This document shows, one piece after another, positions 14,468 through 32,140 of a DNA stretch of 64,000 nt; within the stretch, counting starts at the first letter, position 1; every line of letters begins with the position of its first letter. The DNA is from a candidate division WOR-1 bacterium RIFOXYB2_FULL_46_45. GTDB taxonomy: Bacteria > Margulisbacteria > WOR-1 > XYC2-FULL-46-14. Both the position numbers and the translations under genes were made by a program. The stretch lies in NCBI GenBank assembly GCA_001771585.1, contig MEUE01000001.1, positions 931,984-995,983 on the forward strand. The letters are read 5' to 3'. The notes below the pieces were generated by a model. That model saw nothing but the letters and a program-made list of their open reading frames with translations, ran no database searches and was not told where the DNA came from.

Positions 14468-14469
14468 AT

Positions 14470-14543
<74 letters not shown>

Positions 14544-14565
14544 TTTTTTTACCAAAAAGAAGAAT

Positions 14566-14641
14566 CGGGGTGTGGCCCAGCTTGGTCTAAGGCGCTACCT
14601 TGGGGTGGTAGAGATCGTGGGTTCGAATCCCGCCACCCCGA
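14566..14641 (+). tRNA. tRNA-Pro (anticodon GGG)
   Basis: Acceptor arms CGGGGTG / CACCCCG with discriminator A. The anticodon stem CTACC...GGTAG closes loop TTGGGGT, giving anticodon GGG, and the T-arm is TGGGTTCGAATCCC. CCA is not encoded. The flanks AAAAGAAGAAT and ATTCTTCTTTT are reverse complements, so the acceptor stem extends by about 12 base pairs into the precursor and ends in a T-run. Confidence 0.93.
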
Positions 14642-14669
14642 TTCTTCTTTTTTAAGGTATAATTATAGT

Positions 14670-15191
14670 ATGAGAATACTTCTGATCGGGCTTCTTTTGG
14701 TCTTTTTGTCCGGCATCGGCCACGCGGTTGATTTGCGGGCGGTCAAGCTTCTAAAATATCTGGAACGCTATCCCGGAACCCCGCTGGCAAGCCACGTTCA
14801 CGAAATTTTAAGCTGTGCCGATAAATTCAAGGTGGATTACCGCCTCTATGTCGCGATCTCCGGGGCAGAATCCGGGTTTGGCAGAAAGGTTTCCCTTGAC
14901 CGGAAAAACTTTACCGGCTATTTGAACGGAAGAGTCGGATTTATTTCTATTTACGACAACATCTACAAGACCCACGAATTGATCGGAACCGGGAAATGGT
15001 ATAAAAAATACCGCGCAACCAAAAACATCAAGGATTTTGTCTATACCTACAAAGGGGTCCCCCCCTATGCCCACTACCTCCGCAACATCCGTGCGGTGAT
15101 GGTCGGAATCGCCAATATGCCGGTCGACAGGGAGAAGACCGAACTGGAAGCGGCGGCAAATTGGGTCGCGACCCGCTACGATAAATACTAA
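14670..15191 (+). CDS. Secreted lysozyme-like (transglycosylase-fold) protein
   Basis: 173 residues. A signal peptide (RILLIGLLLVFLSGIGHA) is followed by a compact domain with YVAISGAESGFGRKV, which resembles the catalytic Glu region of lytic transglycosylases or glucosaminidases, then FTGYLNGRVGF. Murein cleavage is inferred; the substrate is not certain. The ATG at 14670 lies 6 bases after a TATAAT box (14658-14663), so the start and a leaderless mRNA are well supported. Upstream in-frame codons run through the tRNA and are not coding. Confidence 0.78.
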   Translation: MRILLIGLLLVFLSGIGHAVDLRAVKLLKYLERYPGTPLASHVHEILSCADKFKVDYRLYVAISGAESGFGRKVSLDRKNFTGYLNGRVGFISIYDNIYKTHELIGTGKWYKKYRATKNIKDFVYTYKGVPPYAHYLRNIRAVMVGIANMPVDREKTELEAAANWVATRYDKY

Positions 15192-17805: not shown

Positions 17806-17935
17806 GATAGTTTTGTAAATCCTAAAGGATTGGGAAATGATGGTGTAATTCCATCGCGGTACCGCCACTGTAAAAGCCAGAAAACCAATCGTTAGGAAAT
17901 TCCCGTAAGAAAGCCTCGGATCTGGGCTTGGGAAG
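17806..17935 (+). ncRNA. Cobalamin riboswitch (short type)
   Basis: The segment carries the conserved cobalamin core GGTGTAATTCCATCGCGG, then ACCGCCACTGTAA (B12-box region), GGAAATTCCCG and GCCTCGGATCTGGG. At about 130 bases it is shorter than the enteric btuB riboswitch, resembling the compact variant. It lies directly upstream of a BtuB-like receptor gene, the classic target. Ligand binding should switch off receptor synthesis through the hairpin at 17940-17969. Confidence 0.85.
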
Positions 17936-29026: not shown

Positions 29027-30290
29027 AGTTCGCTTTGCCCCGTCCCCTACCGGCGCGCTGCATCTGGGCGGAGCGCGCACCGCTCTTTTTAACTGGCTTT
29101 ACGCGCGCGGACAGAACGGGCTTTTTATCTTGAGGATTGAGGATACGGACAAAGAACGCTCCACCAAAGAGGCAGTTAACGCGATCTATGACGGGATGAG
29201 ATGGCTGGGGCTTGATTGGGATGAAGAGCCGTACCATCAGACCGACCGGCTTGAAATTTATCGGAAATACGCGGATGAACTGTTGGCTGCGGGGAAAGCG
29301 TTTCGGGACGAAGGGGCGATCCGCTTCAAACTGCCGCAAGGGGTGCAGGCGGTTGTTTTTGATCTTTTGCGGGACAAAGTCGAGTTTGAATCGGATGTCC
29401 TGGATAATTTTGTCATTTTAAAATCGGACGGATTTCCAACCTATAATTTTGCCTGCGTTATCGACGACCATTTGATGGAAATTACCCATGTCATCCGCGG
29501 GGACGACCATCTTTCAAATACTCCCCGCCAGCTTTTGGTTTACGAGGCCTTGGGTTTTAAGCCCCCCAAGTTCGCGCACATTCCGATGATCTTGGGGGCG
29601 GACGGGACGCGCCTCTCCAAACGCCACGGGGCGACTTCCGTCATCGAATATGAAAAGCTCGGCTATCTTCCCGACGCGATGTTCAATTACCTGGCGCGGC
29701 TGGGGTGGGGATACAAGGACCAGGAGATTTTTTCGCGCGACGAGCTTGTGAAAAAATTCACAATCAAGGCGATCTCAAAAAATCCGGCCAAGTTTGATTT
29801 TGACAAACTGAAATGGCTAAACGGGCAGTATATCCGCAAGGCGCTGCCGGAGCGGATTATTGACCTTTGTCTTCCCTATCTTACGGAGGCCTACGGGACG
29901 CACGATTTTGAGTATGTTTCAAAGGTGGTCCGGCTCTTTTTGGACCGGCTGGTCTTAACCGCGGAAATTGTTCCGCTCGCAAAATATTTTTTCACCGACG
30001 ATTATGAAGTTGATCCCGCCGCGGTTGAAAAGTATTCTGCCCCAAAAGTTTTGGCCGAGCTGAAAGCGCGGCTTGAAAAGGTTGATCCGTTTACAAAAGA
30101 GAATATCGAGCCGGTTTTCAAATCTTTAGCAACGGACTTGGGCTTAAAGCTTGGCGACATAATTCACCCCTGCCGAGTTGCTTTGACCGGAACCGCATCC
30201 TCCCCGCCGATGTATGATGTTATCGAAGTGTTAGGGAAAGAAAGGGTTTTAAATAGGTTAGGGGCAGGTTTCAAACCTGCCCGTACTTAG
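29016..30290 (+). CDS. gltX: Glutamyl-tRNA synthetase
   Basis: 424 residues, shorter than the common 460-490. HIGH motif as PSPTGALHLGGARTALFNW, KMSKS region as DGTRLSKRHG, and LRIEDTDKERS. It charges tRNA-Glu (and possibly tRNA-Gln, since no GlnRS is seen). The last residues, GAGFKPART, are encoded by an embedded palindrome (30262-30282 with flank GTAC), so the native C-terminus has been replaced or extended by a repeat. It overlaps the convergent speB by 33 bases and ftsL by 11. Confidence 0.95.
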   Translation: MSVKVRFAPSPTGALHLGGARTALFNWLYARGQNGLFILRIEDTDKERSTKEAVNAIYDGMRWLGLDWDEEPYHQTDRLEIYRKYADELLAAGKAFRDEGAIRFKLPQGVQAVVFDLLRDKVEFESDVLDNFVILKSDGFPTYNFACVIDDHLMEITHVIRGDDHLSNTPRQLLVYEALGFKPPKFAHIPMILGADGTRLSKRHGATSVIEYEKLGYLPDAMFNYLARLGWGYKDQEIFSRDELVKKFTIKAISKNPAKFDFDKLKWLNGQYIRKALPERIIDLCLPYLTEAYGTHDFEYVSKVVRLFLDRLVLTAEIVPLAKYFFTDDYEVDPAAVEKYSAPKVLAELKARLEKVDPFTKENIEPVFKSLATDLGLKLGDIIHPCRVALTGTASSPPMYDVIEVLGKERVLNRLGAGFKPART

Positions 30291-30980
30291 ATATCCCATC
30301 AGCTTATAGATCAGTTTTGCAATCATAAAATCCGGCGCGTGCAGTCCTTTGATCGGAGCCAGTTCGACGAAATCGGCGCCGACGACAGCTTTGGTTTTGC
30401 AGACTTTTTTGAATATATTTAATACTTGTTGCCAACTCAATCCCCCCGGCTCCGGCGTTCCGGTTGATGGCATGATTCCCGGATCAAAGACATCAACATC
30501 AAAGCTGATGTAAACGTGTTTTGACAATCGCTTCGGAAGGCGGGAGTAGATGGGATATTCTTCCTTTGACATACTCCGTACACCAAGGGAGACCACCGGA
30601 CAAATTTCGAGCATCCTTCGCGCGGCGCAGGCGTGGGAATCTTTTCTCCCTTGGTAACTGTCACGCAGGTCGGCATGGGCATCCAGGTGCAAGACCGACA
30701 GATCGGGATAGATTTCTTTGACAGCTCTCACCGCTTCGGGAGAGATCGAATGTTCGCCGCCGAGAATTATAGGAATACTGTTGTTTTTTAATGCCTTCAG
30801 GCAGGCGGAATACAATTTGGTTTTTGTGACCGGTTTCGCGGCGGTCCGCAAAACTTCCTCATCAAAATTCTCAACGTATTTTAACGCTTCAAGGATTGCT
30901 TTCGGCCCGTTTTTGGTCCCCTTACCCCAGCTGACAGTCTCTTCGTGGGGGCAGGGGATGAGGGTAAATTTAACAGACAT
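30258..30980 (-). CDS. speB: Agmatinase/arginase-family ureohydrolase
   Basis: 240 residues from the ATG at 30980. Binuclear manganese motifs: LGGEHSISP near residue 65, [10 protein letters not shown] near 90, and [22 protein letters not shown] near 165. Substrate (agmatine, arginine or another guanidino compound) cannot be fixed from motifs, but agmatinase is the commonest in short members. The start is defined by the shared promoter: TATAAT on the minus strand lies 6 bases before the ATG. It is shorter than SpeB (about 300). Confidence 0.87.
30262..30286. repeat. Variable palindrome, copy 5, in the gltX 3' end
   Basis: Arms GGGCAGGTTT / AAACCTGCCC around one C, followed by GTAC. It encodes the gltX C-terminus on one strand and the last residues of speB on the other. 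Confidence 0.75.
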
Positions 30981-30994
30981 GTTATAATTATAAC
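30981..30994. promoter_or_regulatory. Palindromic bidirectional leaderless promoter (speB/trpB)
   Basis: The whole spacer between the two divergent start codons is GTTATAATTATAAC, a perfect palindrome. It supplies a TATAAT box to each strand, each ending 6 bases before an ATG. The -35 regions must lie within the opposite genes. Confidence 0.7.
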
Positions 30995-32140
30995 ATGTAC
31001 AAAGACCTTCCCGATTCAAGCGGCCATTTTGGCAAGTTTGGGGGGCGGTTTGTCCCGGAGACCCTCGTCCCCGCTCTGGAAGAATTGGCCTCCGCCTATG
31101 AAAAGGCAAAGAATGATCCCGAATTTAAACGACAGGTCGAATATTATTTCGATACATATGTTGGAAGACCGACACCCCTTTATTTTGCCGAAAGATTGAC
31201 AGAACATTACAAAGGAGCCAAGATTTATCTAAAGAGAGAAGACCTGGCTCACACCGGCGCCCACAAAATCAATAACACAATTGGCCAGTGCCTGCTTGCC
31301 CAAAGGATGGGGAAGAAAAGGATCATTGCCGAGACCGGAGCGGGACAGCATGGAGTGGCAACCGCTACAGCTTGCGCCCTTTTAGGACTGGATTGCGTCG
31401 TTTATATGGGAGAAGAAGATACCCATCGCCAGGCGTTGAATGTCTATCGGATGAAATTAATGGGAGCAAAGGTTGTTCCCGTTAATTCCGGAACAAAAAC
31501 ATTAAAAGACGCGACTAACGAAGCGCTCCGCGACTGGATGGCTTCGTCCCAACACACTTTTTATTGTCTTGGATCCTGCGTCGGGCCGCACCCGTATCCG
31601 ACGATGGTTCGTGATTTTCAGTCCGTTATCGGGAGAGAAGTCAGAGGCCAGATGGAAAAACTTCCCGACTATCTGGTGGCCTGTGTCGGCGGGGGATCGA
31701 ATTCAATCGGCTTGTTTTTTGAGTTTTTAGACGACCCGGAAGTTAAAATGGTGGGAGTTGAAGCCGGCGGAGCGGCGAGCCTGCTCAAAGGGGATCCCGG
31801 AGTTTTGCACGGAGCTTTTTCGTATCTTCTGCAGTCAAAGTTCGGCCAGATTTTACCGACCCATTCGATTTCGGCCGGACTCGATTATCCGGGGGTGGGA
31901 CCGGAACATAGTAATTTGAAAGAGGCGGGGAGAGTCGAATATGTGAATGTTTCCGATAAAGAGGCAATTGCCGCTTTTAAGCAATTATCGGAACTGGAAG
32001 GGATTATTCCCGCGTTGGAATCCGCCCATGCCATGGCTCATCTAAAAAAATTGGCGCCAAAACTTGATTCGTCGCAAACGATTGTGGTCTGTTTGTCGGG
32101 AAGAGGAGACAAGGATGTCGAGGGAATAAAAGGCTTATAA
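30995..32140 (+). CDS. trpB: Tryptophan synthase beta subunit
   Basis: 381 residues, standard length. It starts [20 protein letters not shown]. The PLP lysine lies in [13 protein letters not shown], and the phosphate loop is [10 protein letters not shown]. It condenses indole with serine. The start follows the 14-base palindromic promoter directly, so the mRNA is predicted to begin at or next to the ATG. trpA lies 0.9 kb downstream, separated by an oppositely oriented accessory gene. Confidence 0.97.

Follow-up and report, generated by a model that had tools for sequence, protein, structure and literature searches.

A 14-bp palindromic spacer between speB and trpB as a candidate pair of overlapping leaderless extended -10 promoters

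Bidirectional promoters are defined by divergent transcription starts lying 7-25 bp apart (PMC10268837), with 18, 10 and 23 bp as common spacings in E. coli (PMC12825309). As far as the work of Warman et al. 2021 is relayed in PMC12825309 and PMC10268837, the bidirectional promoters of bacteria and archaea contain overlapping -10 elements on opposite strands and are used by one polymerase at a time. Leaderless genes have their TATAAT about 6 nt ahead of the ATG and lack a Shine-Dalgarno sequence, the -35 element being absent or dispensable (PMC3160421; for Deinococcus-Thermus PMC12340547), and a TG peak has been described for some low-GC genomes (PMC3160421). The EcoRV R-M system is a further known case in which the polymerase sites of two divergent promoters overlap (PMC5333194).

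Within the window, i.e. the whole stretch of 64,000 nucleotides analyzed here, the divergent genes speB and trpB are separated by a palindrome of 14 bp, which on the evidence of its sequence very probably consists of two overlapping leaderless extended -10 promoters, one per strand. It shares the overlapping opposite-strand -10 elements with the bidirectional promoters described above, and its predicted start spacing of 15 bp falls inside the range of 7-25 bp but matches none of the spacings common in E. coli. In contrast to the known examples, both boxes are perfect extended -10 elements, the mRNAs are predicted to be leaderless and no intergenic sequence is left beside the promoter core. The -10 signature is that of the leaderless genes, here in its extended form, whereas divergent or bidirectional use is unmentioned for the leaderless genes of PMC3160421 and PMC12340547, and Saganbacteria-type and Saccharibacteria lineages are absent from those listed in PMC3160421. 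The EcoRV R-M promoters, with which speB/trpB shares the overlap of polymerase sites, have a dedicated C-protein regulator and an intergenic space, whereas no regulator is evident at speB/trpB. Bidirectional promoters and leaderless genes are thus each known, and speB/trpB is a new compact form of the bidirectional promoter; no paper joining both in a palindromic 14-bp spacer that is used to the full was found in the literature searched.

Table 1 Features of the speB/trpB locus in window coordinates
Feature	Position	Strand	Remarks
trpB, tryptophan synthase beta subunit	30995-32140	+	passes TIGR00263; without Shine-Dalgarno sequence
speB, agmatinase family	30258-30980	-	passes TIGR01230 agmatinase; start MSVKF backed by relatives
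speB-trpB gap GTTATAATTATAAC	30981-30994		14 bp; between speB CAT (30978-30980, minus) and trpB ATG (30995-30997)
Perfect palindrome ACATGTTATAATTATAACATGT	30977-30998		22 bp; both start codons within
trpB extended -10 box TGTTATAAT	30980-30988	+	ends 6 nt 5' of ATG; class consensus
speB extended -10 box TGTTATAAT	30987-30995	-	mirror image; pattern TGNTATAATN6ATG
Overlap of both -10 boxes	30987-30988		2 bp; core TATAATTATA
Predicted trpB transcription start	30995	+	A of ATG, 7th base after TATAAT; from spacer-6 peak
Predicted speB transcription start	30980	-	A of ATG; from spacer-6 peak

As outlined in Table 1, the palindromic gap of 14 bases, the TATAAT on each strand, which ends exactly 6 nt ahead of the ATG, and the gene identities, all proposed in an earlier note on this DNA, were found as described, except that the perfect palindrome measures 22 bp instead of 14, because both start codons form part of it. 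On both strands the sequence reads TGTTATAAT-TATAAC-ATG, with a TGn in front of TATAAT, resulting in two extended -10 boxes. Each TG takes its T from the middle of the opposite start codon and its G from the first base of the spacer, and the N of TGn is symmetric as well at this locus. In place of a Shine-Dalgarno sequence TTATAATTATAAC stands before both ATGs. The same note had located the -35 element of each gene inside the other gene. This finds no support in our analysis, since no -35-like hexamer was detected at the speB/trpB site and the promoter class described below has no -35 signal either, presumably because the extended -10 element takes its place. Both start codons agree with those of relatives (MYKDLP/MFKNLP for TrpB; MASKF/MNKF/MSVKF for SpeB). 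A comparison with relatives (loci L028, L014, L007 and L026, considered also for the speD-like gene described below) shows a longer SpeB N-terminus in several of them. When present in a read-through transcript, the 22-bp palindrome would form a 9-bp hairpin burying the trpB AUG, so that leaderless translation would be favoured over leadered.

The pattern TGNTATAATN6ATG occurs four times in the window (0.02 expected). In order to describe how closely two such elements can be packed, the conflicting bases of two TGnTATAAT-N6-ATG copies were counted for all gaps from 4 to 29 bp. Of all gaps in this range, 14 bp alone lets two perfect copies overlap with no base in conflict, since the T of each TG comes from the opposite start codon. 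If both genes need this element, the palindrome is consequently close to forced; the N of TGn is the only base left free. This packing rule would allow start sites to be predicted from sequence in uncultured phyla.

For the genome as a whole, a sample of 796 kb was analyzed (stretches L031-L050 and L055-L074) with a simple home-made gene caller, whose choice of starts is approximate. An exact TATAAT with a 6-nt spacer before an in-frame ATG was found 28 times compared to a background of about 1.8 per position, 18 of the 28 cases carrying the TG. A -10 box at a distance of about 6 nt from the start codon is therefore a genome-wide feature, and the aligned spacer-6 sites yielded the consensus ATGnTATAATtawanYATG and no -35 signal. 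A second peak appeared at a 9-nt spacer (16 cases, 13 with TG), suggesting another class whose leaders are about 3 nt long. One-way promoters of this genome keep the TGnTATAAT half and lack the mirror half, and one-way promoters with TATAATTATA occur too. The principal sigma factor carries RTIRIPVHMVETIN (stretch RIPVHMVETIN), including the H and E by which TG is contacted in E. coli. In genome G074 no RpoD was found with TIGR02393. A 340-kb sample of a Saccharibacteria genome displayed the same spacer-6 peak (28 cases, 22 with TG). Wide use of leaderless extended -10 transcription in Saccharibacteria and Saganbacteria-type genomes is suggested by these data, and we found no paper on it in the literature searched.

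With respect to these features, a sigma-70-type polymerase would recognise TGnTATAAT in either orientation and melt the AT-rich core common to both promoters. Depending on the orientation, RNA synthesis would then start at the A of the trpB ATG or at that of the speB ATG, the two being 15 bp apart, so that both mRNAs would begin with AUG and be translated as leaderless messages. Since one polymerase at a time would occupy the palindrome, a short-lived competition is expected rather than a lasting either/or choice. We infer these start sites, the leaderless translation and the competition from sequence. The earlier note had gone further and regarded the two genes as mutually exclusive. Its premise stands, as simultaneous binding of two polymerases would be excluded; its conclusion is not supported, because in E. 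coli competition was negligible at basal activity at all five bidirectional promoters tested (PMC12825309), so that one cell can express both genes. A genuine switch, in which strong competition renders speB and trpB expression anticorrelated, is therefore an improbable outcome, though the least improbable of the alternatives: the polymerase footprints overlap in full, high occupancy is predicted from the two consensus boxes and strong activation of one direction does bring about competition (PMC12825309), but there is no evident functional reason to oppose tryptophan and polyamine synthesis.

A comparison of the spacer in relatives, as the earlier note had advised, gave a divided result: the exact palindrome at speB/trpB was found in the window genome only, whereas the divergent order and the short-leader -10 boxes recur. 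Within the order, speB is divergent from trpB, as seen in G000 (the window genome) to G005, G007 and G008. In the nearest relative, G001, the gap amounts to 38 bp and contains two separate extended -10 boxes and no speD. A speD-like gene is located between trpB and speB in G003, where its product matches TIGR03330 (adenosylmethionine decarboxylase) with a score below the cut-off, and, judged by similarity of sequence, also in G002, G004 and G008; the window genome has no such gene in the gap. The trpB promoter of G003 is already TGCTATAATTATAGCA, its -10 element being 18 nt away from where the divergent speD starts. As the relatives keep the order and the -10 boxes and differ in their gaps, gene order and short-leader promoters are old, and the exact palindrome at this pair seems to be the product of a recent collapse.

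The same comparison bears on the view that only the trpB direction is a real promoter, with the mirror half as a by-product of the symmetry of the -10 element and speB weak or expressed from elsewhere. A TATAAT is positioned just 5' of the trpB start in most relatives of the class (exactly at N6 in L014, L023 and L024), an arrangement that counts for the two-promoter reading as well, most speB genes of the class have no such box beside their start, -10 boxes are inherently near-symmetric and one-way promoters with the same core exist in this genome, as mentioned above. However, speB also possesses a perfect TGnTATAAT-N6-ATG, the speB of G001 has its own box TGGTATAAT, any other speB promoter would have to sit inside trpB and, at the ung/tdk pairs discussed below, selection holds both halves. 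We consider this view unlikely, even more so than the switch, and the reading as two overlapping promoters is retained.

Among 74 genomes of the phylum, the geometry CATNNTATAATTATANNATG occurs at four sites, all of them exactly between two divergent start codons, compared to none for the reversed pattern and one for a core displaced by 1 bp. Two of the four are the only exact-geometry sites of the window genome, speB/trpB and uvrA/mnmA; the others, in two genomes of a sister genus, belong to a trpG/femX-like pair. At uvrA/mnmA (G000:C4:54162-54181, locus L078), the second gap-14 case of this genome, TATATAATTATAAC alone parts the start codons. A search for CATGNTATAATTATANCATG over 84,980 species returned 101 stretches, 80 of which were listed. 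Open reading frames run both ways from 57 of these 80, compared to 3 of 162 other CAT-N14-ATG sites in the same loci; among the matches listed, the fraction was 45/52 for Saccharibacteria and 2/13 for Firmicutes-type sequences. In 147 genomes of the Saccharibacteria class the exact geometry was found at 19 sites in 11 genomes and the control displaced by one base at a single site. The geometry recurs at about a dozen Ca. Saccharibacteria gene pairs, including ung/tdk, glyS/ABC transporter, dnaG/unknown, galE/sugar transferase-like and tmk/ung, where family checks covered ung, tdk, glyS and dnaG and the other members were named from their N-termini. In several Saccharibacteria (L109, L122, L124, L128, L133 and L150) a release-factor gene (prfA in L109) bears the same palindrome, the opposite ATG opening a conserved ORF of 5 codons (MFLDL, MLLDL, MDLGI).

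For the analysis of selection, ung/tdk loci of one Saccharibacteria genus were picked by protein similarity and not by the palindrome; the query came from a palindromic locus, and the 30 loci nearest to it were retained. Across the whole Saccharibacteria family, tdk was too divergent and gave one palindrome. Among 25 divergent ung/tdk pairs the gap was 14 bp in eight, 18 bp in four and 17 bp in two. Between the eight 14-bp spacers there are 0-2 differences in 14 positions, all of them confined to the N of TGn, at loci whose fourfold-degenerate sites are 42-80% diverged (12-13% for one close pair). To judge from this pattern, both TGnTATAAT halves are held by selection at ung/tdk, which is evidence from another phylum and another gene pair than speB/trpB. 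Three of the four pairs with an 18-bp gap keep the core TATAATTATA, each side being 2 bp longer. At the gap-18 ung/tdk loci L288, L293 and L295 the palindromic core is kept and lengthened symmetrically to CATATGCTATAATTATAGCATATG or a close variant, giving 8-nt spacers on both sides.

Alternatively, the palindrome might be the operator of a dimeric transcription factor co-regulating speB and trpB, the resemblance to -10 elements being secondary. A perfect 22-bp palindrome at a divergent pair occupies the classic operator position, and the 20-mer of the sister-genus trpG/femX site, likewise at a tryptophan/folate gene, is identical to that of speB/trpB. On the other hand, the same geometry is found at the unrelated pairs uvrA/mnmA, ung/tdk and glyS/ABC transporter and at dnaG in different phyla, the one-way promoters of the same genome have the TGnTATAAT half without its mirror, and conservation at ung/tdk covers exactly the two TGnTATAAT boxes and leaves their N variable. 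Furthermore, the 16-mer has no regulon of copies in the window genome: a single other copy was found (≤1 mismatch), and it also occupies a -10 position. An operator is thus very unlikely. That the motif, short and AT-rich as it is and mostly not between two gene starts among the Firmicutes-type 20-mer matches listed, arose by chance was rejected, since CATNNTATAATTATANNATG matches once in the window and never in 100 dinucleotide shuffles, and the reversed and shifted patterns and the two of two window-genome sites at divergent starts speak against it as well.

For the interpretation as a bidirectional leaderless promoter, put forward in the earlier note, the genome-wide signature, the recurrence, the shifted-pattern controls and the conservation in Saccharibacteria provide good support at the level of sequence. 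More tentatively, and with rather less than even confidence, the gap-14 pairs may represent a selected and recurrent class of zero-leader divergons in lineages relying on leaderless extended -10 promoters: head-to-head genes would converge on a 14-bp palindromic spacer as the entire regulatory region of both, and its symmetry would tie their outputs via the orientation choice of the polymerase. The speB/trpB spacer, fully used at 14 bp and lacking leader, -35 element and operator, would rank with the most compact regulatory regions of two genes. The gap-14 pairs offer natural, conserved and symmetric test cases for polymerase orientation choice.

Two further observations were made elsewhere in the window. 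Right after two tandem tRNA-Pro genes (14469-14642), AGGTATAATTATAGTATG at 14655-14672 displays the same -10 core without the TG. An AdoCbl-II (cobalamin) riboswitch was identified at 17822-17895 with 54.4 bits.
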